Origin: Sinorhizobium sp. RAC02
Lineage (GTDB): Bacteria > Pseudomonadota > Alphaproteobacteria > Rhizobiales > Rhizobiaceae
DNA: 64,000 bases
Assembly: GCF_001713395.1 (NCBI RefSeq)
Contig: NZ_CP016451.1
Span: 194,556 to 258,555, forward strand
Reading direction: 5' to 3'
The notes beneath the pieces were generated by a model, which saw nothing but the letters and a program-made list of their open reading frames with translations, was not told where the DNA came from and did no database searches. Position numbers and translations under genes: made by a program. The stretch's first letter is position 1. Each line of letters starts with the position of its first letter. Positions 1,926 through 40,653 of the stretch are shown piece after piece.

Positions 1926-1946
1926 GTTCCTCTATTCGCGACACAC
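1926..1946 (+). promoter_or_regulatory. Repeated 21-bp operator-like element, site A
   Basis: A copy of the GTTCC-N7-GCRACACAG element: GTTCC at 1926-1930 and GCGACACAC at 1938-1946, one mismatch in the second half. It lies between the divergent hydrolase (starts 1800) and the KefB-like antiporter (starts 2165). The second half faces the antiporter operon, 218 bp before its start. The binding protein is inferred to be one of the LysR paralogues in the window. Confidence 0.55.
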
Positions 1947-2164
1947 TTTTGCAATCCATGCGGCTATCCAGCCAATCTACGCAACGTTACGAGTGGCTTT
2001 CAGGGAATGGCAACGAACGACCTGCAAGTGAACCAAACCGTTTGGCTTGAAGGCGTCCGCCAACTGCTCTTGGCTGCGTGGCGAAGTCCAGTGCGACAAG
2101 AGGGGCAAAGAATACGCAATCGGCTGGTCCCGTTGGTCAAGCTGACAAAACGGGAGGCGAATGA

Positions 2165-3922
2165 TTGGCTGAAGTGGGTTTGGGGCAGACGATCGGACCT
2201 GCGATCGTCCTGATGGGAGCCGCTGTCGTCGCAGTGCCGCTGTTTCGGAGGCTCGGTCTGGGTTCAGTGCTGGGTTATTTTGCTGCCGGTGTGCTGGTCG
2301 GCCCCTCGTTGCTTGGCCTCTTTACTGACGCCCTGTCCATCCTGCATTTTTCCGAGCTTGGCGTCGTGATGTTTCTGTTCGTGATTGGACTTGAACTGCG
2401 CCCGCTCAAGCTATGGGCTATGCGTGGACAGATTTTCGGGCTTGGATTGGCACAGGTCGCGCTGGCAATCGCAAGTCTTGCGCTGACGGGGATGCTGGTT
2501 TTCGGCCTGTCCGGTCAGGTGGCCTTCGTCGCCGGGGCAGGCTTCGTCCTCTCTTCGACCGCCGTCATCATGTCTGTCCTCCAGGACCGCGGCGAGATTT
2601 CGAGTGTCGAGGGCCAGAAATCAGTCTCGATCCTGCTCTTCGAGGATCTCATGATCGTGCCGCTTCTGGCGGTGGTCGCATTCCTGTCACCGCTATCCCA
2701 GGCACAGTCGGGCTGGATGGACATTTTGCTGGCACTTGGTGCGGTGCTCGTGCTTCTGGGCGTATCGAAATGGGGGCTGAATCCATTTTTTGCCCTGCTG
2801 GCGAAGACGCGAACGCGCGAAGTCATGACGGCGGGCGCGCTGATGGTGGTCCTCGGCGCAGCGCTGTTGATGGACATGACTGGTCTCTCCATGGCGATGG
2901 GCGCATTCCTCGCCGGGGTGATGCTGTCTAGTTCGAGCTATCGGCATCAGATCGAAAGCGATATCGAGCCGTTCCGCGGCCTTCTCATGGGTCTGTTTTT
3001 TCTGGCAGTCGGCATGTCACTCGACCTTTCCGTCGTTGCCGCCGAAGGGTGGCTTCTGTTGTCCATGCTAGTCGCATTCACGATCGCAAAGGGCGTCGTG
3101 GTTTATGCGGTTGCACGCGTGTTCCGCAGTTCCAATCACCAGGCATTACATCGCACCTCGATGTTCTTGCAGGGCGGCGAATTCGCCTTCGTGCTCTATG
3201 CCGCCGCGACTACTGGCGGCGTGATTGACGCCCGCGAAAATGCGTTGTTTACCACCGTCGTGATCTTCTCCATGGCTCTAACGCCGCTCCTGATGATCGC
3301 GGCAGACCGGCTGCTGCGAAACGAACCATCGATGGATGGCGTCGACGCAGCCCGGGATCTGACTGGATCAGTGCTCATCATCGGTTTCGGCCGCTTTGGG
3401 CAAATCGCATCGCAGCTGCTGCTCGCCAAGGGCGTCAGTCTCTCGGTGATCGACAGGAACCCTGATCGAATCCGCGATGCAGGGCGGTTCGGGTTCAAGG
3501 TCTTCTTCGGCGATGGTACAAGGCTCGATACCCTGCGCCATTCCGGGGCGGTGTCTGCCGATGCGCTGATGATCTGCGTGAACGATCCGAAAGCGGCAAT
3601 GCAGATCGTGGAACTGGCGCAGCACGAGTTCCCGCAGGCAAAGATCCTCGTGCGGAGTTATGATCGCGCTCATGCCGTGGAACTGATCCGGGCTGGCGTC
3701 GATTACCAGATCCGCGAAACGGTCGAATCCGCCTATATGATGGGAGCGGAAGGGCTGCGGGCGCTGGGCTATGCCGAGCTCGACGTGGAGGAGGCCGCAG
3801 AGGATGTGCGTCAACGCGACAATGAAAGGCTCGCCGAGCAGGTGCAGGGCGATGCCATGTCCGGCCGCGGCCGGTTGCATGTCCAGCCCGTTCCGGAACC
3901 TCTCGGCAAAGCGTCCGTGTAG
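2165..3922 (+). CDS. Monovalent cation:proton antiporter-2 (CPA2) family, KefB/KefC-like
   Basis: This 585-residue protein has an N-terminal Na+/H+-exchanger domain of roughly 12 membrane segments (residues about 1-380), including LGYFAAGVLVGPSLLG and FLQGGEFAFVLY. A TrkA-N/RCK nucleotide-binding domain starts near residue 400, where GFGRFGQ is the Rossmann loop. This is the architecture of glutathione-gated K+ efflux systems KefB/KefC, which acidify the cytoplasm during electrophile stress. The start is a TTG behind GGGAGGCGA; a nearby ATG at 2161 is out of frame and closes after three codons. It heads a tight operon with the next two genes. Nearby MDR reductase and GST genes fit an electrophile-defence role, which is inference. 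Confidence 0.88.
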   Translation: MAEVGLGQTIGPAIVLMGAAVVAVPLFRRLGLGSVLGYFAAGVLVGPSLLGLFTDALSILHFSELGVVMFLFVIGLELRPLKLWAMRGQIFGLGLAQVALAIASLALTGMLVFGLSGQVAFVAGAGFVLSSTAVIMSVLQDRGEISSVEGQKSVSILLFEDLMIVPLLAVVAFLSPLSQAQSGWMDILLALGAVLVLLGVSKWGLNPFFALLAKTRTREVMTAGALMVVLGAALLMDMTGLSMAMGAFLAGVMLSSSSYRHQIESDIEPFRGLLMGLFFLAVGMSLDLSVVAAEGWLLLSMLVAFTIAKGVVVYAVARVFRSSNHQALHRTSMFLQGGEFAFVLYAAATTGGVIDARENALFTTVVIFSMALTPLLMIAADRLLRNEPSMDGVDAARDLTGSVLIIGFGRFGQIASQLLLAKGVSLSVIDRNPDRIRDAGRFGFKVFFGDGTRLDTLRHSGAVSADALMICVNDPKAAMQIVELAQHEFPQAKILVRSYDRAHAVELIRAGVDYQIRETVESAYMMGAEGLRALGYAELDVEEAAEDVRQRDNERLAEQVQGDAMSGRGRLHVQPVPEPLGKASV

Positions 3923-3946
3923 AAATAGCAATGAAAGTGAAGGCAC

Positions 3947-4972
3947 ATGCGAACGCTAAGGGTTGCGATTGCCGGGTTCGGGGGCGTGGGGCGTGCCACG
4001 GCGAGCCTTCTCCTGTCGCGGCGCGCGCGTTATCGCCAGGTCTATGGGGTCGACATCCGTCTGATTGCGGTTTGCGGATCACAGGCCGGCTTGCGCGATG
4101 ATCGCGGTCTCGAAGAAGACCAGCTCGGCACGCTCGAGGACGGACGTTCTGGCCCGGATTTCATAGAGGAGAGCGGGGCGGATATTCTCGTCGAAGCCGG
4201 ACCGAGCGATTTTCGTAGCGGCGGCCCGGGGCTTGGCTACATTCGTTCCGCCCTGTCTGCCGGGCGTGATACGATCGTGATATCCAAGGGCGCGCTTGTC
4301 CACAGCGGAAAAGAACTTCGCGAACTTGCAAGAAGATCGGGCGCCTTGCTGAAGCTCAGCGGCGCGGCGGCGGCGGCCCTGCCGACGATCGATCTCGTGG
4401 ATCACAGCCTCAAGGGCTGCACCGTGCTTGAAGTCGAAGGTATTCTCAATGCCACGACCAACTACCTGCTCGACGCCATGATGACACGTGGGATCGGCTT
4501 CGAAGCCGCGTTGCGCGAGGCGCAGCTCGGCGGCTTTGCTGAAGCCGATCCGCGAAACGACACGGAAGGGTGGGATACCGCCTGCAAGCTGCTGATCCTC
4601 GCCAATTTCGGCCTCAACGCCGACCTGACGATGGATGACCTGACCGTCGAAGGTATTCAGTCGGTGACCGGCGAGCGTATCGAGGCATGGTGCAGTGCGG
4701 GACTCGTACCAAAACTTGTCGGCAGTCTCACGCGGGCTGACGGCACATTCAGCGCCGCCGTTGGCATAAAGGCCTATCCTCTCTCCGATCCATTCGCGAA
4801 CATTCGCGGAAAGGACAAGGCGATCCGCATCACAACGGACGCAATGGGAGAGACGATCGCGATCGCATCCGGCAACGAGCCGCTGGCTACAGCCGCCGCT
4901 GCGCTGAAGGATCTCGAGCACATTCTGACGGCGCGGGCCGCAGAAGACTTATCGGAGAGCACTTCACAATGA
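3947..4972 (+). CDS. Homoserine dehydrogenase-like oxidoreductase without ACT domain
   Basis: A 341-residue NAD(P)-dependent enzyme. Residues 6-18 (VAIAGFGGVGRAT) form the Rossmann nucleotide-binding loop. The homoserine dehydrogenase catalytic domain follows, with NATTNYLLDAM and the AEADPRNDTEGWD...CKLLILA block that carries the substrate-binding acidic residues and lysine. The C-terminal ACT regulatory domain of ordinary Hom proteins is absent, as in the short homoserine dehydrogenases. It lies 24 bp after the antiporter and overlaps the next gene by 4 bp, so translation is probably coupled. Position beside an ion antiporter and an amidotransferase suggests an accessory pathway rather than threonine biosynthesis, but the real substrate is unknown. 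Confidence 0.8.
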   Translation: MRTLRVAIAGFGGVGRATASLLLSRRARYRQVYGVDIRLIAVCGSQAGLRDDRGLEEDQLGTLEDGRSGPDFIEESGADILVEAGPSDFRSGGPGLGYIRSALSAGRDTIVISKGALVHSGKELRELARRSGALLKLSGAAAAALPTIDLVDHSLKGCTVLEVEGILNATTNYLLDAMMTRGIGFEAALREAQLGGFAEADPRNDTEGWDTACKLLILANFGLNADLTMDDLTVEGIQSVTGERIEAWCSAGLVPKLVGSLTRADGTFSAAVGIKAYPLSDPFANIRGKDKAIRITTDAMGETIAIASGNEPLATAAAALKDLEHILTARAAEDLSESTSQ

Positions 4973-9109: not shown

Positions 9110-9130
9110 GTTCCCCATTTTGCGACAGAG
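9110..9130 (+). promoter_or_regulatory. Repeated 21-bp operator-like element, site B
   Basis: GTTCC at 9110-9114 and GCGACAGAG at 9122-9130 match the GTTCC-N7-GCRACACAG element with one mismatch. It is 116 bp upstream of the LLM monooxygenase start, nearly the spacing seen at sites C, D, F and H. The adjacent downstream LysR gene (10318) is the natural candidate regulator. Confidence 0.65.
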
Positions 9131-9246
9131 CTTCCCAGGATCGAGCACTATCGCATGACCGGCTGTGGTGCCAGTCTCAGACTGTCGGTGGCCGTGCACC
9201 CGTGGAGAAAGAAGCTCTGCGCTAAACATCTTTCAAAGGACCCATA

Positions 9247-10317: not shown

Positions 10318-11340
10318 ATGGACATCGAAGATCTGCGGACCTTTGTCGAAGTCGCCGATTCCGGTGGTGTATCGCCGGCGGCGCGCCGGTTAGGTGTTTC
10401 CAAGTCGATGGTCAGTCGGCGGCTCGCCCGACTTGAGGTGGAACTCGGTGTCCAACTTGTTGCGCGCACTACCCGTGGCGCCGGCCTCACCGAGGCGGGT
10501 GTCACGTTTCGCGAGTTTGCGGCAAAAACCTGCACCGAAATAGACATTGCACGCGAAACGATTTTGCCCGAAGGCGACCTTCGTGGACGCTTGAGGGTTT
10601 CCGTTCCGCTGACATCGGGCCCAATGCACTTCGCCTCCGTGCTTACAGAAATGGCGCGCCGCCACCCGCAGCTTCAGATCCACGCCGAATATAGCGACCA
10701 CTGCGTCGATCTGGTTGCAGAAGGGTTCGACTGCGCGATTCGAGTCGGCGCGTTGCGTGACTCCAACGTGATCGCCAAGCGCGTGGGCGAGATCTATTTC
10801 AAGCTCGTCGCCAGCCCCGACTATATCAGGGTTCATGGCTCACCTGAATCGCCAGACGAAATCGCGACCCACCAAGCCTTGCTGGGTATCGAGGCGTGGC
10901 GGTTCCTGGAAGGCGACAGGATCATCACCGTGCAGGCACAGGGTCGCTTCAGCTCCAACAACGGCGCGGCGATAGCCAAAGCCGCAGCGAAGGGGCTTGG
11001 CATTGCATGGCTTCCGGACTGTGTCACCCATAAATATCTTGCCTCAGGCGCGCTTGTCCCAATCATGACCCGCTTTCCGCTGCCCGTCGGGGATGTTCAT
11101 GTTGTCAGGCCATCCAGCCCCCATCCACCGCGCAAGGTGCGTATCCTTTCCGAATTTCTCATCGCATCTTTCGAAAAACTTCGCGGGGCGTCGGGTGCGG
11201 ATAACCGATCACCCACCCTTGATCACTCGCTCACATCTCTCAATAGTTCGTCGGGCGCGGAACTCCGCCTGAAGATAAATAACTCCGTCTCAGATGATGC
11301 CTTCAGAGAACAGCGGCAACCAATTCACTCCGCGATATAA
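10318..11340 (+). CDS. LysR family transcriptional regulator (paralogue 1)
   Basis: A 340-residue regulator. The N-terminal winged helix contains EDLRTFVEVADSGGVSPAAR and SKSMVSRRLARLE, followed by the LysR substrate-binding domain. ATG 10318 aligns with the start of the three sister regulators (20374, 36521, 37501). Its C-terminus is about 30-40 residues longer than theirs, a low-complexity Ser-rich tail after the conserved RKVRILSEFL segment, possibly from loss of the original stop. It sits directly downstream of the LLM gene. A degenerate copy of the 21-bp element (10293-10313) overlaps its translation start region, which hints at autoregulation but is weak. Confidence 0.88.
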   Translation: MDIEDLRTFVEVADSGGVSPAARRLGVSKSMVSRRLARLEVELGVQLVARTTRGAGLTEAGVTFREFAAKTCTEIDIARETILPEGDLRGRLRVSVPLTSGPMHFASVLTEMARRHPQLQIHAEYSDHCVDLVAEGFDCAIRVGALRDSNVIAKRVGEIYFKLVASPDYIRVHGSPESPDEIATHQALLGIEAWRFLEGDRIITVQAQGRFSSNNGAAIAKAAAKGLGIAWLPDCVTHKYLASGALVPIMTRFPLPVGDVHVVRPSSPHPPRKVRILSEFLIASFEKLRGASGADNRSPTLDHSLTSLNSSSGAELRLKINNSVSDDAFREQRQPIHSAI

Positions 11341-12396: not shown

Positions 12397-13647
12397 ATGA
12401 GCAACAAATGGCCACGCCTCGACTACCTCAGCTGGCGCGAAACGTGTTCCGCCCTGCACCTCTACCTGCAGGTCGTCGGCAAATACCGACTGGCTCATAC
12501 ACCGTGGCTCAACCATTCCTGGAACGCGACTTTCTACGTTACCCCCTCCGGTCTGACGTCCTCTCCGATCCCTGATGGCCCTGGCATCGAGATTGTGTTC
12601 GATTTTCATGAACATACAGTCATTGGTTCGAATGGTGACGGACGGCGAGCCTCGTTTGCGTTGGGGACATCTACCGTCGCAGGGTTCCACGCCAATTTCA
12701 CCCGTCTGATCTCCGAACTCGGCGGCAATCCCGACTTCCATGGCCAGCCAAATGAAGTGGCGGACCCCGTGCCGTTCGATGAGGACCATCGGGAACGCTC
12801 GTATGACCGCGACGCCGTCCGGAAGTTTCATGAGGCACTGATGGCGATAGACCGGGTATTCAAAGCGTTCCGGACATCCTTCATCGGGAAATCCAGTCCT
12901 GTGCATCTTTTCTGGGGCAGCTTCGATCTGGCCGTTACCCGGTTTTAGGGACGGCAGGCGCCAATCCATCCTGGCGGCGTACCGGCACTGCCGGACAACG
13001 TGGCGCAGGAGGCCTACGACCGCGAGGTTTCTTCGGCAGGCTTTTGGCCGGGAGGCGGCGGCATCGACTATCCCGCATTCTATGCCTATGCCTATCCCGC
13101 ACCGAGCGGTTTCAGGGCTGCGTCTGTTCGGCCTGATACGGCATTCTGGCACGAGGGCCTGTCGGAGTTCATCCTGCCTTATGAGGCGGTTCAGGCTGCG
13201 GCCGATCCTGACGAAGCGCTCATGGCGTTTCTCGTCTCGACTTACGAAGCTGCCGCCGATCTTGGACATTGGGATCGAGACCAGCTCGAGTGCACGCACG
13301 GTCAGCGCGGCAAAGTTCGGGAACTGAGTGCGAAGGCCCCGGAGAAGGCTACTTCTTCGGTTAGCGAGGAGGTGGAACGGGAAGACGGGGTTTCGAAGGG
13401 GCGGTACCGGATCGTGGTTGAAGGCGTCGAAGCGGAGATGACCTACAGTCGAGCTGGCACACAGCTCATCATCATCGACCACACTGACGTCCCCGCGGCT
13501 TTACGGGGGAGAAAAGTTGGTGAGCGGCTTGTGCGCCAGGCGATCGAAGATGCCCGACGCGAGGGTGTTTTTATCATTCCCCTTTGCCCGTTTGCGAAAG
13601 CCCAGATTGAGCGACATCCTGAATGGCAGGATGTTCTTCGCAAGTGA
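12397..13647 (+). pseudogene. DUF5996-GNAT fusion interrupted by one in-frame TAG
   Basis: Frame 12397 encodes a DUF5996 protein (YLSWRETCSALHLYLQVVGK, FWGSFDLAVTRF) that stops at TAG 12946-12948 exactly where the family continues with SGRxAPxHPGG. The same frame resumes immediately as GRQAPIHPGGVPALPD and runs to 13647 without another stop, completing DUF5996 (SSAGFWPGGGG, YPAFYAYAYPAPSGF). After a linker near residue 310 it continues into a YjdJ-like GNAT acetyltransferase domain with VPAALRGRKVGERLVRQAI. A TCG-to-TAG change would explain the stop. The whole would be 416 residues. It may be a recent nonsense mutant, a read-through product or an error. Starts with GGAGAAAGT upstream, 90 bp after pirin. 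Confidence 0.78.
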
Positions 13648-15728: not shown

Positions 15729-15729
15729 A

Positions 15730-17962: not shown

Positions 17963-19465
17963 CTACCAGGCAAACTTCAGTTCCGCTCGGACGTAGTTGC
18001 TGTCACGGCCTCCGGCATTGCGAAGCGTCGAACCTACCTGGTAGTGAACTGCTTCTACCGAGCCTGTAAGATTTCGGTTGAACCTGTAGTCGGCCCTCAA
18101 TTGAACATAGGCGCCCGTCCAAGGATTTCCCCCGCCTGCGGTCCCGGCAACCGGGACGCTCGGCAAGGTATAAACGGCGTCGTCCGTCGTCTGGCGCCAA
18201 AGCAGACCGACGCCTGCCAGTAAGGTCAGGTCATCCATCGGCTGAACGGTGATCGAAGGCTTGACGTGGATGAGGTTGGCGTATCCGGTATGCCCGCCGA
18301 GCGAGAAATAGACTCCGTTTGGAAACAGCGGATTGAAGGTGCCAAGGGTGCCATCATCCGCATCCCGATCACCTGACGCCATGTCGAACTGCAGACCGAT
18401 CCTGGGCGACCAGGTTACCCCTTCAAAGGTATAGCCGGTCCTCGCCCCCAAGGCCCATCCCACAATGTCGGCCGAACCGACCTGCCCGACCTGACCCATT
18501 GCTTCCGCGTCCCAGTCGAAACCGCCATGCGTCCCGGCCAACCGGATATTGAGCACATGCCGTTCCTCCTCGCCCGATGCGGTCAGGAAATTCGCATTAT
18601 TACGTTGGTAGAGCGCGTAATACGCGGAAGCCTCTGTCGTCGGGGACAGTTGTCGCTCTACCCTGGCGCCGCTGAACCGCAGATCGCTGCTTGATTGATC
18701 ATCGAAAGGGTCGTCATCCCGATACTGGACGGGCTAGCTGACAAGACCATAGAAGCGCCATATCTCCGTTTCCCACCCGGCCCAGATCGCGTCGAACGAC
18801 TGGCGGACATTCGGCCCGTCACGGGTCGAGACAAAACGTTCCAGGTCGAACGCGAAGTCCTGCCGACCGATCCTCGCAATAAACGTTCCCGCGTAAGTTT
18901 CCTGCGTATACCCCATGAATGCGAGGCGAAGGTCAAATCTGTTTGCATCGTTGGGGCCGACTGCCGTCTTGTCGAAGGCGCGCACATCTTCAAACTGCGT
19001 AAACAATTGCCAGTTTTCATTCAGGTGTAGGTCGATATGAAACTGCGCACGCTGCAACCCGTAAGCATCCGTTGGGTTCGCCGCTACGGTTCCGAACGCC
19101 GGCGCATCGCTGGTTTCAATGATTTCCCGTAGATTGAACCCTAACGAAATATAGCTGTCGGGATTAGCGGGAAATAACGGGATGTATTTAAGGCGATCCA
19201 GCGGTTGCGTCCGCAGTTCTGCATCTGCGAGAGGCGACCAGTCCTCTTTCGAGCGGTCGGGTTTCATCACGGGCCGATCCGCCGCATTTGCATCGTCGTT
19301 GGCGAAGGCAAGCCCGTGCTCCATCTGAGAAAGGGTGATGAGAGCCAACGATAAAACAAGCCTCCTTGCCCAGTGCGTGAAGCCAGTTAGGTTCGGCTGT
19401 CGCCTCCTGCATCGGTCACCGGCGGCGTGCCATTGGGTACCTAGATTTAAGTTGATTAATCCCAC
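17963..19465 (-). pseudogene. Alginate-export-type outer membrane porin with one in-frame TAG
   Basis: One continuous minus-strand frame encodes an N-terminal signal region (ARRLVLSLALITL...GLAFA), then beta-strand-rich sequence typical of the alginate_exp porin family (SLGFNLREIIETSDAP, QRAQFHIDLHLNENWQLFTQFED). It ends at TAG 18734-18736 after FYGLVS, then continues in the same frame as PVQYRDDDPFDDQ...FSGARVERQLSP through the last strands to FAW at 17963. A C-terminal aromatic residue fits an outer-membrane barrel. Only the TAG (probably CAG originally) breaks it. The start is uncertain: GTG 19465 is the longest choice and lacks a good ribosome binding site. Confidence 0.75.
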
Positions 19466-19574
19466 GAGGATCGTTTTCGGTAGTTCGATGCGGTACTTTC
19501 GGAACGACGAGGATAGATGGATCGTCCGTAGTATTCCGGTGCCTCCATCGGTTTCCTCGATGTCCCGGCCATGA

Positions 19575-20234
19575 CTAAAGTCCTGCTGGGGCGTTCGTCA
19601 CCGGTGTGTTAAGCAACTGCTGTTCCCACAAGTAGGCGATGCCGCTGCCAGCCATGTGAGATATCAGCACCTCGGTCAGTTCTTCGACATGCTGGGTGCG
19701 TGCCCAGTCCCGCTGCCATTCGCTAGCCAAGGCCATCCACGTCATCATGTTGACGCCGGCTGCGATCATGCGCTGTATGGCGACCTGGTGAGACTCGACG
19801 GAGCTTCCCCCCGATGCGTCGGTGATGACGGTCACGTCCCAGCCTTCGCCAGCCGCCTGGATTGCAGGCATCGCAACACAGACTTCCGTCCAGAGGCCTG
19901 CGATGATGAGTTGCTTACGCCCGGTCGCCTTGACGAGATCCACCACATTCTTGTCTTCCCACGTATTGATCCAAGTCCGGTCGATCACTTCCTGCCCCGG
20001 GAAGACATCGGTGATCTGCTTGAAAAGCTTACCGCCGCGATCGGCAATGACACTGGTAAGGATCGTCGGAACATCGAAGGCCTTGGCCACCTTGGCCAGC
20101 GCAGTCGTGTTGTTGACGACAGCCTGAGGATCATGACTATTAACGTTGGTCAGCTGATAAGGCTGATGGTCGATAAGGACGAGAACAGAATCTTCGGGAC
20201 GAAGGAGAGAATCTAGGCCGTTACGAAAGGTCAT
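19575..20234 (-). CDS. Isochorismatase-family cysteine hydrolase, YcaC-type (copy 1)
   Basis: A 219-residue hydrolase closely following E. coli YcaC: VLVLIDHQP with D22, RTWINTWED with arginine where many relatives have lysine, and GLWTEVCVAMPA with C119. Members are cytosolic hydrolases of poorly known substrates. The sequence is about as similar to copy 2 (39572-40234) as within-family duplicates usually are. It is divergent from the LysR gene at 20374, with site C 113 bp upstream of its ATG, so LysR control is likely. Confidence 0.9.
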   Translation of the reverse strand: MTFRNGLDSLLRPEDSVLVLIDHQPYQLTNVNSHDPQAVVNNTTALAKVAKAFDVPTILTSVIADRGGKLFKQITDVFPGQEVIDRTWINTWEDKNVVDLVKATGRKQLIIAGLWTEVCVAMPAIQAAGEGWDVTVITDASGGSSVESHQVAIQRMIAAGVNMMTWMALASEWQRDWARTQHVEELTEVLISHMAGSGIAYLWEQQLLNTPVTNAPAGL

Positions 20235-20347
20235 GGATACATCCTGTATTGCAGGTTAATAAAGCTTCGTTCGAGGGCGTTCGGAAAGCCATCCGCTACG
20301 AACGTGCCATTCTCTCTTGTGGCCCGGTAGTCCTCGGTTGTGTCATG

Positions 20348-20368
20348 CTGTGTTGCAGGAAGGGGAAC
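20348..20368 (-). promoter_or_regulatory. Repeated 21-bp operator-like element, site C
   Basis: On the minus strand, GTTCC (20368-20364) and GCAACACAG (20356-20348) match the element fully. It is 113 bp upstream of the YcaC-type hydrolase and overlaps the AAGGGGAACG ribosome binding region of the divergent LysR gene (start 20374). Occupancy could therefore activate the hydrolase and repress LysR translation or transcription. The regulator assignment is inference from position. Confidence 0.7.
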
Positions 20369-20373
20369 GCGAA

Positions 20374-21745: not shown

Positions 21746-21781
21746 CCTGTGTGCGCTTATCTGGTGTTACGCACACCGGAG

Positions 21782-22216: not shown

Positions 22217-22432
22217 AAACCTGCATCTCTTTCTTGTTTCAATTGGTTGTTTTGGGCTTTGTATAGCTTCCGGTTTTGCGGGTAATAAGAGGGTCTTGAA
22301 GCTGTCGCCGTTCCCGAACGCCGCACGCCGTCGTGGCAATAGGTTAGCGGCACGCAGCCGCGGCGACTTGCCCCGGCCGCGCTAATTTCGCTTTTTGTGA
22401 GACAAAGCAGAGGAAGAACCTGACCGCTAAGT

Positions 22433-24241
22433 TCATTTCGCCTCGTAGTAGCTGCCAAAGTATTTAATGGGCGACCAAGCAGGAAGAATCTCAGGCAGTT
22501 TCGGTGATAGATCGCTATAATCCTGCGCACCGAACACTACCTTGCCGTCCATGATAGTCAGAACAGAAGAAACCAATTTGATCTGATCTTCCGGCACGGC
22601 GAAATAGTCCCGGTCGAGCACAACGAAGTCCGCGAGATTGCCCGGCGCAATTAATCCCATTTCGGATTCGGTATCCATGAACCATGCTGCGCCTCTGGTG
22701 AACAGTTTCAGCGCTTCGGCGCGGGAAAGACGATTGTCCTTGGCCAGAACTTCGGATCCCGACACGGACTTCCCGGATACCATCCAGCTGATGCCAACCC
22801 AGGGGTTGAACGTGGCTGCACGGAAGGCGTCGGTGCTCATAGCCAGCGGAATGCCGCTATCCACGAGCTTGCGCAGACGCGGGGTCTGCAAAGCTACCTC
22901 GCGACCATGGCTCTTGATGAACGCGTCACCGTGCAGCGCCATTTTCGCATCAAGGGCGATACCGCCGCCCAGCTTTTTGACCCTTTCGATATTCTCCGGA
23001 GTAATGGTCTCAGCGTGTTCGAGGCTCCATTTCAGACCATCCAGCGGGATCTCTTCGTTCAACTTTTCCAGAGCGTCGAGAAAGGGTGTGATGTTCTCAT
23101 TGTAGCTGATGTGTTCGCGGAATGGGATGCGTTGTTGGACCAGCTTCCGTACATCCTGCTCAACCAGCTGTCGCATCTTTTCAGGCTCGATGACGATCGC
23201 CGGACGATCGAAGTTCTCGTGATCGTGCACTTCCGCCTGCAAGACCTCCCCGGCCCCTCGATATTCATGGCCATGTGCAAGGGCAGGATGCAGGTTCTGC
23301 CCGGTGCTGATCGGCGCTGTCTTCGTGATCGCTTCGAGCTGCGCGTCCACCATGTTCATCGGCTTGCTGCCGTCGCCAAGTTGTAGGACGATAAAGGGCA
23401 TGCGCACGTTGAGAAGGTTGTCCCGTGCAAGCACGTCCACCGTCGCCTGCGGCTTGGGGTATCCCCACCGGCTGCCCGCATCGATGATGGAGGTCACCCC
23501 GAAACGGTTCAAACCGTGAATGCTGTAGATCAACGAACTCACTTCTTCGTCGAATGTAAGCTGTGGCACCATGGTTTCGAGGGCGACAAAGGTCCAGGTG
23601 TTTCCGTAGACAACACCAGTATACTGTCCGTGGCTATCCTTTTCAAACTCGGTATCCGGCAATTTGGGAAACCGATCGGTCCCCACGCCAAGGACCTCCA
23701 TAGCGCGCTTGTTTAAAAAGGCGTGGTTGTAGGCATATTGAACAATCAACGGACGATTAGGCACAGCCCTTTGCAATTCATCCGGCGTGGGAAGGCGGTT
23801 TTCCTCAAATTGATAGGGAGACCAGCCTCCGATCACTTTGACCCATTGTCCATCCGGTGTGCGTTCGGCCTGCTCGCTCAGCATAGTCAACGCCTCACCC
23901 AGCCTCGGCACGCCGTCCCACCGTATGTTGTAATTATAGCCGCTGTCGTTGAGGACGTGTGTATGAGCATCGCTGATGCCGGGAATGACCCTTCGGCTGC
24001 GCGCGTCAATCACCTTGGTCGCTGAATTCTTCAGACTGAGAATTTCCGCATCAGAGCCGACGGAATAGATGCGCCCCTTCGTAACGGCGAGAGCCGAAGC
24101 TTCGGGCTGCGCACGGTTGCCGGTGAATATCTTTGCGTTGAAAACGATCAGATCAGCGCCGGGCTGGTGCTGGGTCGTTTGTGCTTGAACGGAGGAAAAA
24201 GATGAAACCGTCACAAATGCGATAAGTATTTTTCTGATCAT
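22433..24241 (-). CDS. Exported amidohydrolase, YtcJ-like
   Basis: A 602-residue amidohydrolase starting at ATG 24241 behind GAGGGC. MIRKILIAFVTVSSFSSVQAQ is a signal peptide, so the enzyme is probably periplasmic. The metal site opens with SDAHTHVLN. Later blocks include WSLEHAETI (metal histidine) and MSTDAF with the conserved aspartate, then APGNLADFVVLD. YtcJ-like proteins hydrolyse C-N bonds of cyclic or amide compounds. It sits where the isochorismatase of a LysR module would be expected: 23 bp upstream is a vestigial isochorismatase N-terminus and further up is site D, so it may have captured that promoter. Confidence 0.87.
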   Translation of the reverse strand: MIRKILIAFVTVSSFSSVQAQTTQHQPGADLIVFNAKIFTGNRAQPEASALAVTKGRIYSVGSDAEILSLKNSATKVIDARSRRVIPGISDAHTHVLNDSGYNYNIRWDGVPRLGEALTMLSEQAERTPDGQWVKVIGGWSPYQFEENRLPTPDELQRAVPNRPLIVQYAYNHAFLNKRAMEVLGVGTDRFPKLPDTEFEKDSHGQYTGVVYGNTWTFVALETMVPQLTFDEEVSSLIYSIHGLNRFGVTSIIDAGSRWGYPKPQATVDVLARDNLLNVRMPFIVLQLGDGSKPMNMVDAQLEAITKTAPISTGQNLHPALAHGHEYRGAGEVLQAEVHDHENFDRPAIVIEPEKMRQLVEQDVRKLVQQRIPFREHISYNENITPFLDALEKLNEEIPLDGLKWSLEHAETITPENIERVKKLGGGIALDAKMALHGDAFIKSHGREVALQTPRLRKLVDSGIPLAMSTDAFRAATFNPWVGISWMVSGKSVSGSEVLAKDNRLSRAEALKLFTRGAAWFMDTESEMGLIAPGNLADFVVLDRDYFAVPEDQIKLVSSVLTIMDGKVVFGAQDYSDLSPKLPEILPAWSPIKYFGSYYEAK

Positions 24242-24263
24242 TTTGCCCTCTAGTGGCTGAGTT

Positions 24264-24347
24264 TTACAAGGTACGGTCAAGCGGAAGCAGGCGCCTTTCA
24301 GCGTGCACCGGGCTAAGAAGTGAGGCGAGGGAGTTACGGAAGGTCAT
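24264..24347 (-). pseudogene. Vestigial N-terminus of a YcaC-type isochorismatase
   Basis: A 27-codon frame from ATG 24347 begins MTFRNSLASLLSP, matching the MTFRNGLDSLLRP and MSFRNGIDSLLRP starts of the two intact hydrolases, then diverges and ends at TAA 24264-24266. The DNA upstream also resembles the isochorismatase promoter at 20235-20374. It reads as the leftover 5' end of a deleted third copy, now serving as a short leader in front of the amidohydrolase. Confidence 0.7.
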
Positions 24348-24467
24348 TTAATACATCCTCTGTTGGCTTTTCGTCGAAGAACGTCGCGAAGAGCCCCTTT
24401 TGAGAAATCCAGCCGCGTTGAGCGTGTCATGCCCCTTAGGTGCCTGGTAGCCCTCGTTCGTGCGACG

Positions 24468-24488
24468 CTGTGTTGCATGAAGAGGAAC
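24468..24488 (-). promoter_or_regulatory. Repeated 21-bp operator-like element, site D
   Basis: Minus-strand GTTCC (24488-24484) and GCAACACAG (24476-24468) match the element fully, 120 bp upstream of the vestigial isochorismatase ATG and 226 bp upstream of the amidohydrolase. The flanks resemble those of site C over roughly 50 bp, including CTGGTAG-CCTCG-type matches, supporting duplication of a whole promoter. Confidence 0.68.
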
Positions 24489-25161
24489 GCAAATTATTCT
24501 GTACGCCCGCCCGATAGCGAGGGCGCGATGAGCCTCGGCAAGAAAATAACGATCGGTGTTAGAGCAGCGTCAATATTTCGAGGTCGGCACGGGTCAGGAA
24601 AAGATGCAGTATGCGCGACCTCCGCCTTATCTGCGTTTCATCTATCATGACATTGCGACTGGTTCGGCCCATCAAGGACTCCGCCGAATTTTGAGGCACC
24701 ATTTGATTCGATTGCCTTCCGGCTCAAGCCGCGACATGGCTGATCGGCGTGTCGTTCCCCTTTGTGCAACACAGTTTCGCGCTTGCGGAGACTACCTTGA
24801 TCGAAACTGCAACGCTAAACTTGCTGCTGAAACCACTTTCAGGAGACGATATAAAGGTGAAATTGGCCGACCACCTGAGTTATGACAGAATGCCTCGGAA
24901 CCGGCTTAACCGTTGAAGCAGTGGTTCGTGTGACTGTTCCGGCTCGGCGTTAGCTTTTTCCTGCGCCTAATCGCTGCGGTGGGGGTCATCGGTCTCCCGG
25001 CGTTTGGGCGCTTTACAGAGGCTGGGACCGTGGTTTTTCTTGCGGCCCCAGCACGAACGGCTGACACGCGGACTATCGCTGCTCAACGGGGCTAACTGGT
25101 CCATGCTGCGAAGCGCTTCAAAAACCGTGCTTACCTTAAACAGATCCCAGAGAGGACAATC
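24489..25161. other. Long gap with site E and no convincing gene
   Basis: No family-recognisable frame exists here. A plus frame at 24556-24885 has no motif. After site E a short frame GTG 24857 to TGA (MKLADHLSYDRMPRNRLNR) follows CAGGAGA, but it cannot be judged. The region is probably scar tissue of a deleted LysR gene and other material. Confidence 0.4.
24754..24774 (+). promoter_or_regulatory. Repeated 21-bp operator-like element, site E
   Basis: GTTCC (24754-24758) and GCAACACAG (24766-24774) match the element fully and read toward the nitroreductase, 387 bp away. The N7 spacer differs from site F in no position, and the two sites differ at only one base overall. The long distance suggests a gene or segment was lost in between. 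Confidence 0.65.
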
Positions 25162-25761
25162 ATGACGACCAGCAACAGTCGCGAGTCGGAGTATCCGATC
25201 GCCCCACTTTTTCTTGATCGCTGGTCTCCCCGCGCCTTCAGCAATGAAACGATGCCGGAGAAGGATCTGCTGACGATCCTTGAGGCCGGTCACTGGGCGC
25301 CCTCCTCGTTTAACCATCAGCCTTGGCGATTTGTCTACGCGATGCGTGGTTCAGATTACTGGGACAATTTCCTCGGCCTGCTGATCGAGTTCAACCAGAG
25401 TTGGGTGAAGTCCGCTGCCGCTCTGTTCTTCGTCACTTCTCGCACTCATTCGGGCGAGCTGGGCTCTGCAGACCAGAAGCCGATTTACAGCCACTCCTTC
25501 GACGCAGGTGCGGCTTGGGCGTCCATAGCATTGCAGGCTCATCTGTCGGGCTATGAAGCGCATGGCATGACCGGCGTTAATTTCGACAAGGCGCCTGAGG
25601 TCCTCGGGATCCCAAATGGTTTCCGCGTCGAATGCGCAGTCGCCATCGGCAAGATCGGCGACAAAAACCAGCTGCCCAAGGGGATCCGCGAACGCGAAGT
25701 GCCAAGCTCGCGCAAACCGCTTTCAGATGTGGCATTCAACGGGATTTTTATTGTGAAGTAG
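25162..25761 (+). CDS. Nitroreductase family protein
   Basis: A 199-residue FMN-dependent oxidoreductase. RWSPRAFSNETMPEKDLLTILEAGHWAPSS carries the FMN-phosphate arginines typical of the family, and NHQPWRFVYA follows. The C-terminal part GIPNGFRVECAVAIGKIGD is the second FMN contact. AGAGAGGAC precedes the ATG. Such enzymes reduce nitroaromatics or quinones with NAD(P)H in the cytoplasm. It is the only intact gene downstream of site E. Confidence 0.9.
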   Translation: MTTSNSRESEYPIAPLFLDRWSPRAFSNETMPEKDLLTILEAGHWAPSSFNHQPWRFVYAMRGSDYWDNFLGLLIEFNQSWVKSAAALFFVTSRTHSGELGSADQKPIYSHSFDAGAAWASIALQAHLSGYEAHGMTGVNFDKAPEVLGIPNGFRVECAVAIGKIGDKNQLPKGIREREVPSSRKPLSDVAFNGIFIVK

Positions 25762-26084
25762 GGCAAAGGTCTTCCTGTCTCCCTCGGGCAGGCAGGGGGG
25801 CCTAAAGGAGTCGGATGAGGAGAGCGGAGCTGCCGTAGCCATGGCCGTTCGGATCAGACCTGGATCGCAACAACATGGAACCAGTACGCAACCGACCTCG
25901 CAAAACTGATCGCCTCGCTCGACGTTTGCGATCTCATTCACTTGGGTCCTTGACCGGCGGAAGTGAAGCCGCGCATTACATCGGCAGGGAACCACTGGCA
26001 GAACGATATCTGCAAAACAGTGTCGCCCAGCGCGGAACGCATAAAACCTTGTTATGCGCGACGGCAGGTGATAGCGCTTTGAAC

Positions 26085-26239: not shown

Positions 26240-27790
26240 ATGAAAACATCGTCCATCTACCTCACCACCTCGATACCCTATGTCAATTCCTCACCGCATG
26301 TCGGGTTCGCACTCGAGCTCGTACAGGCCGATGCATATGCTCGCCATTTCCGGCTCCTTGGCAAGGATGTTCGGTTTCAGTGTGGGACCGATGACAACAG
26401 CCTTAAAAACGTGCGAGCGGCAGAAGCCGTGGGACGGCCTGTTGCAGATTTTGTCGCTGCCAACGGCGACAGCTTCGAACGGCTCGGCAGACAGCTTGAC
26501 ATCTCCAACGATGAGTTCGTTCGCACGTCGTACGATCCAAGACACGTCGCTTGCGTCCACTCGCTCTGGAATGCCTGCACCGCCAGTGGCGATCTTTATC
26601 GCAAGGCTTACGAAGGCTTCTATTGCGTGGGCTGCGAGCAGTTTTACGAACCATCGGAACTCGATGACGGGAAATGCCACGAGCACGGCGTGGCGCTTGA
26701 ACTCATTCGGGAAGAAAACTGGTTTTTCCGCCTTTCCCGATACGGCGACGGGATCCTTGATCTGATCGAATCAGAAAAGATTCAGATTAAGCCTGCGCAT
26801 AGACGCAACGAAATCGTCGCTTTGCTTCGGCGCGGAGTGACGGATATCAGCGTGTCGCGCAGCGCAGAACGGGCGCGTGGATGGGGCGTGCCGGTCCCCG
26901 GCAGCGACGAGGTCGTCTACGTCTGGTTTGATGCGCTCGCCAATTACTTGACCGGCCTCGGGCACGGATCTGACGATTTGATCTATCAGCGCTACTGGGC
27001 CGGTGATGGCGAACGCCTCCATTTCGTCGGAAAGGGCATCTCAAAATTCCATGCCATCTATTGGCCGGCAATATTGTTATCCGCCGGTCTACCCCTGCCC
27101 TCATCCATTTTCGTACACGGCTATCTTACGGTGGATGGCAGGAAAATCGGCAAGTCGGCCGGAAACGGAATTTCCCCTGAGCGCCTTATTGAGACGTACG
27201 GCACACCGGATGCACTCAGATACTATCTGCTTCGACACATACGCTCCGGAGATGACGGCGATTTTTCCGAAGAGCGGCTGGAGGCCGCATGGTCGGGGGA
27301 ACTTGGCGGACAACTCGGAAACCTGGCGAACCGGGTGCTAACACTTCTCGGCAATGCTTTCGACGGGGTCACACCTCAAGTCCTGGACAGTGCGCTGGTG
27401 CGGCAAGCGTCAGGACTTTACGAAAGAGTTCATCAGGCTTTCGACAATTATGAGCTTCATGTGGGCCTTGCCGAGATTTTTGCCTATCTGGGCGAGGCGA
27501 ACAGGGAATTCACGAGGCAGACCCCCTGGGCGGATGCGAAAGCACTGCTCGGACACATTGAAACAGACGAGCGAGCCGCGATCGCGCGTCGCCTCGGGGC
27601 CACATTGGCGGAGCAGGTCCACGGCCTTGCCATCGTAGCGCGTTGTCTTCTGCCTTTCCTGCCGAGAGCGGCGGCCGAATTGCACGACAAACTTGGCCTT
27701 GTAGCGCCGGCAAGATACGACGTCCCCTTAGAGGTATCAGGCGGCAGCACGTGGCCTGGCACAGTTATGTTTCCGCAACGGGGGGCTTAG
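26240..27790 (+). CDS. metG: Methionine--tRNA ligase, probable second copy
   Basis: A 516-residue class I synthetase. The HIGH-like signature is PHVGF at residues 19-23. The KMSKS-like signature is KIGKS near residue 300, in DGRKIGKSAGN. A zinc-knuckle-like insert occurs at CVGCEQFYEPSE...KCHEHG, and WFDALANYLTGLG and FVGKGISKFHAIYWP are typical MetRS blocks. The anticodon-binding helical domain is present; the C-terminal tRNA-binding appendage is absent, as in many alphaproteobacterial forms. HVGF and KIGKS both deviate from the commonest consensus, suggesting a paralogue. GAGAGGA precedes the ATG. Its leader/attenuator suggests induction by Met-tRNA shortage. Whether another metG exists is not visible here. 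Confidence 0.88.
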   Translation: MKTSSIYLTTSIPYVNSSPHVGFALELVQADAYARHFRLLGKDVRFQCGTDDNSLKNVRAAEAVGRPVADFVAANGDSFERLGRQLDISNDEFVRTSYDPRHVACVHSLWNACTASGDLYRKAYEGFYCVGCEQFYEPSELDDGKCHEHGVALELIREENWFFRLSRYGDGILDLIESEKIQIKPAHRRNEIVALLRRGVTDISVSRSAERARGWGVPVPGSDEVVYVWFDALANYLTGLGHGSDDLIYQRYWAGDGERLHFVGKGISKFHAIYWPAILLSAGLPLPSSIFVHGYLTVDGRKIGKSAGNGISPERLIETYGTPDALRYYLLRHIRSGDDGDFSEERLEAAWSGELGGQLGNLANRVLTLLGNAFDGVTPQVLDSALVRQASGLYERVHQAFDNYELHVGLAEIFAYLGEANREFTRQTPWADAKALLGHIETDERAAIARRLGATLAEQVHGLAIVARCLLPFLPRAAAELHDKLGLVAPARYDVPLEVSGGSTWPGTVMFPQRGA

Positions 27791-34969: not shown

Positions 34970-34990
34970 GTTCCCCTTTGTGCGACACAG
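34970..34990 (+). promoter_or_regulatory. Repeated 21-bp operator-like element, site F
   Basis: GTTCC (34970-34974) and GCGACACAG (34982-34990) match the element exactly, 118 bp upstream of the SnoaL-like gene at 35109. It differs from site E at a single base, suggesting recent duplication or strong constraint. Confidence 0.7.
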
Positions 34991-36494: not shown

Positions 36495-36515
36495 CAATGT
36501 CGCTAAAGAGGGAAC
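36495..36515 (-). promoter_or_regulatory. Repeated 21-bp operator-like element, site G
   Basis: Minus-strand GTTCC (36515-36511) and GCGACATTG (36503-36495) match with two mismatches. It faces the GST gene, 199 bp from its start, and overlaps the ribosome binding site of the divergent LysR gene, whose TTG start is at 36521, as at site C. Confidence 0.55.
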
Positions 36516-36520
36516 GCAGA

Positions 36521-37408
36521 TTGGAAGTGGAGGATATGCGGACATTCGTGGAGGTAGCGGATGCCGGTGGAGTAACCCCAGCAGCGAGGCGGCTGGGCAT
36601 TTCCAAATCGATGGTGAGCCGGCAACTTCGTCGACTTGAAGCCGAGTTGGGTGCGCAATTACTCGCACGGACGACGCGCGGCGCTTCGCTCACTGAAGCG
36701 GGCGCAATATTTCGCGACCATGCAGCGAGAGTGTGCGCCGAAGTGGACGCCGCACACGAAACCATCACTCCGGGAGGCGAGTTGCGCGGCCTGCTTAGGG
36801 TCGCAGCTCCACTTTCCTTTGGCCCAACCCATTTTACGCCAGTTATCGTCGAGATGGCGCGCCGCCATCCGCATCTTAAAATTCACATCGACTTCAGTGA
36901 CGACACCGTGGATCTGGTGGCAGGCGGGTTCGATTGCGCCATCCGCCTCGGTTACGTCAAGGACAAGAACCTAGCGTCTGTGAAGGTGGGGCCACTTTCA
37001 GGAATGGTCGTTGCCAGTCCTGACTATATCAAGGAAAATGGAGCACCCGAAACGCTGAACGACCTGGCTACGCGTCATCAGGCACTCATGCAGGGTGACG
37101 AAGCCTGGCTGCTCATGGATGGAAACGACGTCGTTGCCGTTCAACCTGCCGGGAGATTTAAGGCCGACAACGGCATCTCTCTCGTTGCGGCCGCCGTAGC
37201 GGGGCTCGGGGTGGCTATCCTTCCCACCGGTCTCATTCGTGAGCATCTTCAAACTGGCGCTCTTATGCCTGTCATGACGCGCCACCCGGTCCCTTCGGCG
37301 GGCATATTCATTGTATGCCGTCATGGACGCCATGCCTCAAGAAAGGTTCGGGTGCTAACTGAAATGCTCATTCAGTGTTTTGATTGCGCCCCTGTCTCGG
37401 GACACTGA
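36521..37408 (+). CDS. LysR family transcriptional regulator (paralogue 3)
   Basis: A 295-residue LysR regulator. I prefer TTG 36521 (first residues EVEDMRTFVEVADAGG) over ATG 36497, because GAGGGA precedes TTG while the ATG lies inside site G without a ribosome binding site. The helix-turn-helix is ARRLGISKSMVSRQLRRLE, then ARTTRGASLTEAG. Divergent from the GST gene. Sister genes at 10318, 20374 and 37501 share the same recognition helix. Confidence 0.9.
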   Translation: MEVEDMRTFVEVADAGGVTPAARRLGISKSMVSRQLRRLEAELGAQLLARTTRGASLTEAGAIFRDHAARVCAEVDAAHETITPGGELRGLLRVAAPLSFGPTHFTPVIVEMARRHPHLKIHIDFSDDTVDLVAGGFDCAIRLGYVKDKNLASVKVGPLSGMVVASPDYIKENGAPETLNDLATRHQALMQGDEAWLLMDGNDVVAVQPAGRFKADNGISLVAAAVAGLGVAILPTGLIREHLQTGALMPVMTRHPVPSAGIFIVCRHGRHASRKVRVLTEMLIQCFDCAPVSGH

Positions 37409-37500: not shown

Positions 37501-38394
37501 TCAGAGCCCGTCAGCCGACTTGCACAAATCTGCCTCCAGACGTTCGATCAACATCTCTGTGAGAACCCTGACCTTGCGGTTGGGCTGAACCCCCGGGGGT
37601 CTAACCACAAATATTCCCGCTCGCGGAAGCGGATAGCGTTTCATCACCGGCACCAGCGTCCCAGCAGCCAAATGATCCCGGATGTATTGATTTGCCAGCG
37701 CAGCGACGCCTAGGCCAGCGACGGCGGCGGCGGTGAGTGCGATCCCACTATTGGCTTTGAAGCGCCCCCTTGGTTTGACGGCGATCAGTTTGTCTCCATC
37801 CATCAGCTTCCATGTATCGGATTCACCCATCAGGGCTCGGTGCGAAGAGAGCTCCTTCAGCGTTTCGGGTGATCCGTATTCCTTGATGTAACTCCGACTG
37901 GCGACCAGTTTCCCGTGGAGAGGGCCGACACGCTTTGCAATCAGGTTCGAGTCGTCGAGAAAGCCCACGCGGATGCCGCAGTCATAGCCTTCAGCGACGA
38001 GATCGACAAAGCGCTCACTATAGGATGTATGGATATGGAGTTGCGGGTGCCGCCGGGCCATTTCTGCCAGAACCGGTGAAAAATGGGTTGGGCCGAAAGA
38101 AAGTGGAGCGGCAACCCGAAGAAGTCCTTGTAGCTCGCCGGCAGGAAGAATAGTTTTTCTAGCCACATCGACTTCATCACAAACTCGCGCTGCGTAATCG
38201 TAGAAGGCAGTGCCAGCTTCGGTAATCAATACCCCTCGCGTAGTTCGTGCAAAAAGTGTTGAGCCAAGCCTGGTCTCAAGACGAACCAGGCCGCGACTTA
38301 CCATGGACTTCGAGATGCCGAGCCGATGGGCCGCGAGCGCTACACCGCCCGCGTCGGCGACTTCCAGAAAAATACGCAGATCATCGGTATTCAT
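37501..38394 (-). CDS. LysR family transcriptional regulator (paralogue 4)
   Basis: A 297-residue LysR regulator with MNTDDLRIFLEVADAGG, HRLGISKSMVSRGLVRLE and ARTTRGVLITEAG. It lies directly downstream of the LLM gene on the same strand, and both follow a YcaC-type hydrolase, giving the order hydrolase-LLM-LysR. No clear 21-bp element lies at its own start, so it may be transcribed from the promoter at 40235-40368. Confidence 0.9.
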   Translation of the reverse strand: MNTDDLRIFLEVADAGGVALAAHRLGISKSMVSRGLVRLETRLGSTLFARTTRGVLITEAGTAFYDYAARVCDEVDVARKTILPAGELQGLLRVAAPLSFGPTHFSPVLAEMARRHPQLHIHTSYSERFVDLVAEGYDCGIRVGFLDDSNLIAKRVGPLHGKLVASRSYIKEYGSPETLKELSSHRALMGESDTWKLMDGDKLIAVKPRGRFKANSGIALTAAAVAGLGVAALANQYIRDHLAAGTLVPVMKRYPLPRAGIFVVRPPGVQPNRKVRVLTEMLIERLEADLCKSADGL

Positions 38395-39571: not shown

Positions 39572-40234
39572 CTAGAAGCCAGAGCTTTCGAGTGACTTTA
39601 CATCAGTGTTAAGCAACTGCTGTTCCCATAGGAACGCGATCCCGCTGCCGGGTTCATGTTCCTTGAGAACATCCACAAATTCGGCAACATGTTCGAGTCG
39701 AGCATGGTCGCGCTGCCATTCAGAAGCCAGGGCCAGCCATGTCATTGCATTGGCACCGGCGGCGATCATGCGCTGGACAGCTCTCTCATGGGCTTCAACG
39801 GAAACTCCACCGCACGCATCGGTGATCACTGTCACGTCCCAGCCGTCACCAAGGGCGTGGATCACTGGCATCGCGACGCAGATTTCCGTGTAGAGGCCTG
39901 CAATGATCAGTTGCTTGCGTCCCGTAGCTTTGACGGCATCCACAACCTTCGGGTCCTCCCAGGTGTTCAGGGTGGTACGGTCGATAACTTCCTGTTCTGG
40001 GAATACATTGGTGATCTGTGGGAAGATCAGACCGCCGCGATCGGCTACGACACTGGTTAGAATGGTCGGAACACGAAAGGCCCTGGCAGCCTTCGTCAGT
40101 CCAGCCGCGTTGTTGACCACGACTTGGGCCGTGTGGCTGTGGAGGTTCGCGAGCTGGAAGGGCTGATGGTCGATCAAGACGAGTACAGAATCTTCGGGGC
40201 GAAGGAGTGAGTCGATGCCGTTGCGAAAGCTCAT
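39572..40234 (-). CDS. Isochorismatase-family cysteine hydrolase, YcaC-type (copy 2)
   Basis: A 220-residue YcaC-like hydrolase with VLVLIDHQP, an arginine in IDRTTLNTWED where many relatives have lysine, and GLYTEICVAMPV carrying the cysteine nucleophile. It is very similar to copy 1. It heads the hydrolase-LLM-LysR unit and has site H exactly 113 bp upstream, the same distance as site C from copy 1. The N-terminus MSFRNGIDSLLRP is the reference that identifies the vestige at 24347. Confidence 0.9.
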   Translation of the reverse strand: MSFRNGIDSLLRPEDSVLVLIDHQPFQLANLHSHTAQVVVNNAAGLTKAARAFRVPTILTSVVADRGGLIFPQITNVFPEQEVIDRTTLNTWEDPKVVDAVKATGRKQLIIAGLYTEICVAMPVIHALGDGWDVTVITDACGGVSVEAHERAVQRMIAAGANAMTWLALASEWQRDHARLEHVAEFVDVLKEHEPGSGIAFLWEQQLLNTDVKSLESSGF

Positions 40235-40347
40235 GATAATCCTCTGCGGTAGTTGAATGGGATGAATGAAAAGGGCGACCGCCGTGGCATTGCCCCGGGC
40301 AAGCTGTCATTCCCATCGTCAAATCGCTAGGGGCGTTATCGGCCACA

Positions 40348-40368
40348 CTGTGTAGCGGATAGCGGAAC
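40348..40368 (-). promoter_or_regulatory. Repeated 21-bp operator-like element, site H
   Basis: Minus-strand GTTCC (40368-40364) and GCTACACAG (40356-40348) match with one mismatch, 113 bp upstream of the YcaC-type hydrolase copy 2. It shares a divergent intergenic region with site I, which faces the PQQ dehydrogenase. Confidence 0.65.
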
Positions 40369-40632
40369 ACGGGCCGAGGATGGGGGCAAAGAGGCGATCA
40401 CTTCGGGCAGATCTTACCGTCATCCAGATCCGTACGGCGCTGACCGGGTGCGCTGGCCGATGCGACGCTGAGGAGCGCCATCGAATCCTATGTCGAGAAA
40501 ACCAGCGGATTGTCTCGTGCCAGGCATAAGGTCAGCGCCCGTTCACCTGTCGCATGATCCGGCGGCCCCCCCGCACCCGCACCGATCCGCGAGCTCCGAC
40601 CTGGCTGACATCGGAGTTGTGCGAAATGCGCT

Positions 40633-40653
40633 GTTCCCGTCTCCGCGACACTG
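40633..40653 (+). promoter_or_regulatory. Repeated 21-bp operator-like element, site I
   Basis: GTTCC (40633-40637) and GCGACACTG (40645-40653) match with one mismatch. It faces the PQQ dehydrogenase, 72 bp upstream of its GTG start, shorter than the about 115 bp seen at other sites. It would connect the PQQ-linked genes to the same regulators. Confidence 0.55.

Follow-up and report, generated by a model that had tools for sequence, protein, structure and literature searches.

A repeated promoter element on a Sinorhizobium plasmid-like contig as the predicted shared operator of a LysR clade

Which regulator reads a promoter element that recurs along a single stretch of a plasmid-like contig? 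The question is raised by 64,000 nucleotides of Sinorhizobium sp. RAC02 DNA (the window), which correspond to positions 194,556 to 258,555 of contig NZ_CP016451.1 (C2) and run to the end of that 258,555-base, plasmid-like contig in a genome of 6.63 Mb; coordinates without a prefix are window positions. A sequence-only reading of the window had proposed that nine promoters share the motif GTTCC-N7-GCRACACAG, and that four near-identical LysR paralogues with an SKSMVSR recognition helix bind it. We find that the repeated motif is real and that, with high probability, it is the recognition half of a shared operator belonging to one LysR clade, with four members in the window and a fifth elsewhere on C2.

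All nine sites (A to I) lie where that reading had placed them, its minus-strand sites being given by their upper coordinate, and none exceeds the two mismatches that it had allowed in the fixed positions: C, D, E and F match exactly, A, B, H and I have one mismatch and G has two. They were said to be intergenic or at gene starts, and by gene calls eight are intergenic, in DNA of which 23% is noncoding, while G overlaps the lysR3 start, as C would overlap lysR2 given an earlier start codon for that gene. The proposed spacing of 113–120 bp between motif end and start codon was likewise reproduced (B 116, C 113, F 118 and H 113 bp, and 120 bp to a relic ATG at D). The loose pattern taken alone is weak evidence: allowing up to three mismatches gives 23 matches in the window where 12.6 are expected, and none of 100 shuffles reaches 23. 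A genome-wide scan allowing up to one mismatch, which had been suggested as a check, returned 12 matches, compared with two for a reversed control pattern, and ten of the 12 cluster within 42 kb of C2 (C2:193078–235208). A core matrix was trained on 40 non-redundant sites from other genomes, picked with the originally proposed motif and without window sequence. When it was compared with ten Markov shuffles of the 258-kb contig, A–H exceeded the shuffle maximum, and so did two minus-strand sites absent from the original list, 26018 and C2:193078. A 51-position matrix retained A–H and C2:193078 above all shuffles and added C2:111731 (minus strand), with I (0.2 matches expected) and 26018 falling within the shuffle range; a 70-position matrix recovered A, B, C, D, E, G and H, and did not recover F and I. 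A sequence-only covariance model of the same outside sites, for which 150 of 2877 first-look candidates were scored, placed its ten top genome matches all at C2:193–235 kb, eight of them at E 0.0033 or better. The nine-site list therefore stands but was incomplete: it had overlooked 26018–26038, C2:193078 and the two further promoter blocks (CTAYC and a -10-like element) described below.

Comparison with related genomes, another suggested check, ties the motif to particular LysR genes. Among 80 LysR-clade loci from other genomes (the best 80 of 522 confirmed; loci are cited by L numbers), 76 carry the motif with at most two mismatches, 51 of them exactly, at the 5' end of lysR and pointing at a divergent gene, so that the operator sits at a regulator gene with a divergent target. 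A redundancy filter reduces these 76 sites to the 40 used for training. The record titles include Rhizobium, Paraburkholderia, Variovorax, Pseudomonas and Dyella, which we take to represent Alpha-, Beta- and Gammaproteobacteria. In RAC02 itself there are five clade LysR proteins (at least 55% identical to LysR2), all encoded on C2, the next LysR being 37% identical. The association extends to whole genomes. In a family sample of 151 genomes, with a clade threshold of E 1e-80 in the protein search and 14 first-look candidates scored per genome, 19 genomes have the clade, 22 the exact motif and 18 both; the motif is thus present in 18 of 19 carriers versus 4 of 132 non-carriers (p 1.5e-18), and in 17 of the 18 genomes with both, no more than ~110 bp separates it from a clade lysR, in three of these solely on the gene's 3' side. 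In a phylum sample of 299 genomes, nine have a relative of at least 64% identity, 18 have the motif and eight have both (8/9 carriers versus 10/290 others, p 2.6e-10). Finally, in 13 genomes chosen for site-bearing loci, 44 of 48 model matches, counted by eye, are on the same contig as a clade LysR and never more than ~8.2 kb away from it.

The box is also lost as the LysR protein diverges. Leaving aside LysR matches shorter than 200 residues or starting after residue 25, it accompanies 93 of 107 proteins at 60% identity or above (training loci included), 4 of 12 at 52–60%, none of 7 at 44–52% and none of 24 below. The fifth RAC02 paralogue, whose match begins 24 bp from the C2:111731 box, has a variant, GTTCC-N7-CGTTCTACAG followed by GCTACCG; the same variant is found in relatives L168–L170, whose LysR proteins are 53–54% identical to LysR2 and carry the helix PKSIVSR. 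Position at the lysR 5' end, co-occurrence, loss of the box with divergence and the variant box of the fifth paralogue together support the proposed binders: in all likelihood the box is read by the LysR clade whose recognition helix is SKS(M/I)VSR. The four window proteins, LysR1 (10318–11340, plus strand), LysR2 (20344–21300, plus), LysR3 (36497–37408, plus) and LysR4 (37501–38394, minus), the start codons of LysR2 and LysR3 being uncertain, do share SKSMVSR, and all have HTH_1 and LysR_substrate domains. They are not near-identical, however, with pairwise identities of 52–63%, and the paralogues on C2 number five, not four. The caution that other regulators might bind can be relaxed on the strength of position, co-occurrence and box decay, comparative data from which binding is predicted.

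Across the 40 non-redundant lysR-type sites, conservation extends well past the motif. The conserved element reads GCGTTCC-N7-GCRACACAG with C at position 27 and CTACCG at 39–44, and lysR-type promoters, but not others, have a third block, GGAATGACA-N3-T, at 56–68. Beyond the motif (block 1), a second block, CTAYC, follows after 17 bp, and a -10-like element occupies positions 63–68 at fixed spacing, with A at position 64 in 37 of the 40. In 21 other promoters the third block is replaced, yet A is kept at 64 in 19 and T at 63 in 15, and the sequence remains -10-like; these were reduced from 33 sites with L030, L055 and L095 excluded, one of them (own5) is a lysR-type promoter, and the genes behind them include pirin, KefB, SDR, PQQ and nitroreductase genes. 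If +1 is set at position 75, the centre of block 1 falls at -66, block 2 lies at about -34 and the -10-like element spans -12 to -7. This would put the transcription starts of the KefB, LLM, ycaC1 and amidohydrolase genes near 2000 (plus), 9184 (plus), 20294 (minus) and 24414 (minus), respectively. Divergent promoters of LysR-type transcriptional regulators (LTTRs) have a -65/-35/-10 layout in the excerpted text of PMC11602165, and the operator-to-promoter spacing seen here appears to fit it, with +1 placed from the -10-like element. The sequence-only reading had set the motif apart from LysR sites on the ground that these usually carry T-N11-A, which is half right: the core is T3-N11-R15 within an imperfect dyad, position 15 being A in three of the nine window sites, G in five and T in one, and the dyad pairs G1/C17, T2/A16 and C5/G13 are invariant across all nine. 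Near LysR genes at 44–52% identity, the best-scoring place reads GTTCC-N7-(G/T)CAAC, that is, with A, in six of seven cases and lacks the remaining motif. At L188, a perfect GTTGC-N7-GCAAC dyad stands at a similar place near the 5' end of a LysR gene at 40% identity, which suggests that the core dyad may predate the clade.

In the window, site A (1926–1946, plus) stands before the KefB-like antiporter operon (2165 onwards), with block 2 CTATCC at 1964–1969 and TACGAG at the -10 position (1988–1993), and KefB orthologues in L087, L103 and L176 are likewise preceded by sites. Site B (9110–9130, plus; block 2 CTATCG at 9148–9153) precedes an LLM monooxygenase gene (9247) and lysR1 (10318), and the LLM gene of Rhizobium johnstonii (L176) is preceded by a site in the same way. 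Site C (20348–20368, minus) lies in the gap between ycaC1 and its divergent neighbour lysR2, in the start region of the latter, has block 2 at 20330–20325 and CACGTT at the -10 position (20306–20301), and points at the gene for YcaC1, an isochorismatase-like hydrolase (19575–20234, minus). Site D (24468–24488, minus) stands before an amidohydrolase gene (22433–24280), and site E (24754–24774, plus), with CTACCT and with TAAACT at the -10 position, has a nitroreductase ORF (open reading frame; 25162) 387 bp downstream. Site F (34970–34990, plus) lies 118 bp before the gene for a SnoaL-like protein (35109) and has a poor block 2 and no -10 element in phase. Site G (36495–36515, minus) lies between divergent GST and lysR3 genes and overlaps the lysR3 start, while site H (40348–40368, minus) precedes ycaC2-LLM-lysR4 and points at the gene for the second isochorismatase-like hydrolase, YcaC2 (39572–40234, minus). 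Site I (40633–40653, plus), before the PQQ dehydrogenase gene, combines a marginal matrix score with CTAC and TA in phase. The extra site at 26018–26038 (minus) consists of block 1 only, without in-phase block 2 or -10, and has a near copy in L030.

At the lysR 5' ends of relatives, the 76 site-ORF pairs (75 loci, L075 being counted twice and L085 having none) lead to ycaC in 57 cases, an amidohydrolase gene in 10, an alginate-export-like gene in 4, pirin and SDR genes in 1 each and none in 3. For 31 of the 57 ycaC genes the motif stands 104–148 bp from the start codon; the others had an earlier start chosen by the longest-ORF rule or an ORF truncated at a contig end. Thirty other sites, partly non-independent where loci overlap, precede genes for pirin (12), SDR (3), amidohydrolase (2), KefB (2), a quinone-oxidoreductase-like protein (1), YcaC (1) and proteins with no window counterpart (9); eight further sites, including that of L085, have no ORF. 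In the related cluster on R. johnstonii pRlX3, five matrix matches stand before ycaC-type hydrolase, amidohydrolase, lysR, LLM and KefB genes. No matrix match there precedes the nitroreductase or NTF2-like (SnoaL-like) gene, so that E and F are unsupported in that cluster. One signal would thereby link YcaC hydrolases, pirins, KefB-like antiporters and an amidohydrolase.

We propose that the full operator-promoter comprises GTTCC-N7-GCRACACAG, CTAYC and the -10-like element at 63–68, in which recognition would take place at block 1 (-66) and activation at block 2, which lies over the -35 hexamer at about -34. A bound tetramer would activate the gene at which the GCRACACAG half points, namely ycaC, LLM-lysR, amidohydrolase and KefB genes here, and pirin and SDR genes in relatives. 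At the ycaC–lysR and GST–lysR intergenic regions, where the box lies at the lysR start region, it would also mediate negative autoregulation; because an ATG is close to the box in 31 of 76 loci, the regulator, once bound, would at these loci mask the region where its own translation begins. These sequence patterns are the basis on which we predict the +1 position, binding, activation and autorepression, and also that paralogues share sites. From the nature of the YcaC, pirin, quinone-oxidoreductase-like, GST and KefB targets, our guess is an aromatic or electrophile-type inducer. A broader picture, which we hold tentatively and at not far short of an even chance, is of a plasmid-borne island in which five diverged LysR proteins, probably with different inducers, draw on one operator pool that grows by copying of lysR-operator-ycaC units and by promoter capture.

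Several observations weigh against a single clade-wide operator or against individual sites. Four of the 80 LysR-clade loci lack a good motif; in the family sample one of 19 carriers is without it, four of 132 non-carriers have it, and in G105 the LysR and motif are on separate contigs. At E 1e-80 the phylum sample has 11 carriers (two more, at 48–50%), eight of them with the motif, and the two samples overlap in genomes and hence are not independent. Several LysR proteins of 57–61% identity have no box at their own 5' end, for which LLM-lysR operons may be the reason. Site I is marginal, with a core-matrix score of 13.5 at which 0.7 matches are expected by chance, and in the genome-wide covariance search neither H nor I does better than E 0.19. 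Among the nine window sites only F departs from A at position 64, and neither F nor 26018 has a -10 element in phase. Strict T-N11-A occurs in only 3/9 window sites and 12/40 elsewhere, 26018 and C2:193078 have no clear target gene, and only 31/76 loci have an ATG within 16 nt of GGAAC on its lysR side.

The pooling of sites has one substantial competitor, a lesser possibility but a serious one, in which each paralogue reads its own neighbouring look-alike operator and the window holds separate small circuits. The divergence of the LysR proteins (only 52–63% identical), the variant box of the fifth, and the fact that B, C, G and H head operons holding or facing a LysR gene would all suit such an arrangement; against it, C2 has 11–12 sites for five clade LysR genes, no clade LysR gene adjoins A, E, F or I, the four window proteins have the SKSMVSR helix in common, and no subclade-specific base appears at eight tabulated positions, the last being a weak test since 65 of the 76 loci are LysR2-like. 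It is very improbable that the box is bound by a different regulator, such as the AraC-type protein at 49018, or that it is the end of a mobile element: part of an AraC-type regulator is indeed encoded in an ORF spanning the upstream site C2:193078, but the box sits at and co-occurs with the LysR clade, decays as LysR diverges and keeps a fixed spacing to the -10-like element. Least credible of all is a translation or leader element of the lysR mRNA with a Shine-Dalgarno-like GGAAC strand, since, although an ATG lies 1–8 nt past GGAAC in 31/76 loci (22 of these at 5 nt), 45/76 have none within 16 nt, and the box with in-phase CTA and -10 blocks is also found elsewhere than at lysR 5' ends, in front of pirin, KefB, SDR and other genes.

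How a shared LysR operator could reach new genes is seen at site D. The vestigial isochorismatase start noted there was confirmed as a ycaC 5'-end relic (24309–24365, minus) between D and the amidohydrolase gene, comprising the end of the leader, an ATG at 24347 and ~13 codons, and in alignments to each ycaC copy it outscored all 200 shuffles. Similar relics occur in Rhizobium L026 and Phyllobacterium L034, and in L026 and L028 a divergent LysR still faces the amidohydrolase. A tblastn search with LysR2 over 24381–25300 found no LysR remnant beside D at E 10. No ycaC relic stood out at A, B, E, 26018, F, G, I or C2:193078, the lowest result being B against ycaC1 (11/200 shuffles). The relics and the divergent LysR of the relatives point to an ancestor in which the amidohydrolase gene probably replaced ycaC behind the same operator, the LysR gene being lost later in this lineage. 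The motif thus seems to have spread partly by genes taking over an old promoter, and site D with its Rhizobium counterparts is a visible case of promoter capture. The plasmid records nearest to 19000–25000, among the matches listed, are all Rhizobium.

Some neighbouring features deserve mention. A methionyl-tRNA synthetase-like gene (Pfam; 26240–27790) adjoins the orphan site 26018 on this plasmid-like contig. At C2 ~193 kb (L013:18337–19047), a good operator copy lies inside an ORF that encodes part of an AraC-type regulator similar, by eye, to the one at 49018–49899. An AraC/XylS reading of the reverse complement was dropped when a link to an AraC gene was not found, as were subclade-specific box bases, which gave no clear pattern in an uneven sample. 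The alginate-export protein is encoded by two ORFs (17963–19465), against a single annotated gene in R. johnstonii pRlX3 (L176:16114–17496), and its gene is probably broken here. A DUF5996 domain extends across two ORFs (12397–13647), the second with an acetyltransferase-like domain, and L176 has one DUF5996 gene (20186–21469). A search for phage carriage of the clade returned 26 phage records, all below 60% identity, with five listed at 31–35%.

Two Escherichia coli regulators invite comparison. YhaJ is a LysR protein divergent from the pirin-like yhaK, with the DoxX-family target yqjF and quinol-type inducers, and in the text available from that source its regulon box is TCA-N7-TGA, unlike the window motif (PMC5031710). 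With its different box and only 25% identity to LysR2 (E 1e-5; weaker to the others), YhaJ was rejected as an orthologue. YcaN is a LysR regulator whose deletion lowers ycaC expression, according to the accessible part of PMC9068703; it was rejected as an orthologue at 26–32% identity to LysR1–LysR4 against 52–63% among the five paralogues, and its locus as a counterpart, ycaN not being divergent with ycaC and the E. coli locus having no matrix match above 14. No description of this LysR clade was found in the open-licence literature, judged mostly from listings. A Pseudomonas syringae HT-SELEX (high-throughput SELEX) survey, as excerpted, describes the pairing of regulators with motifs as mostly one to one (PMC7532196), so that an operator shared by several paralogues would make cross-talk between sister regulators directly testable. 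What the analysis offers, for a LysR clade spanning several proteobacterial classes, is an operator defined precisely enough to test, together with predicted transcription starts. A further apparent likeness is to the LysR-type divergent operator-promoter, for example that of AccR, for which the portion of PMC11602165 consulted gives a dyad near -65, blocks near -35 and -10 and a regulator divergent from its target. It differs in that the predicted recognition half lies here at the lysR start region and a contig encoding five paralogues carries the operator at some ten promoters. In these terms the system is an uncharacterised LTTR regulon of a known kind, unusual in its predicted shared operator and captured promoter.

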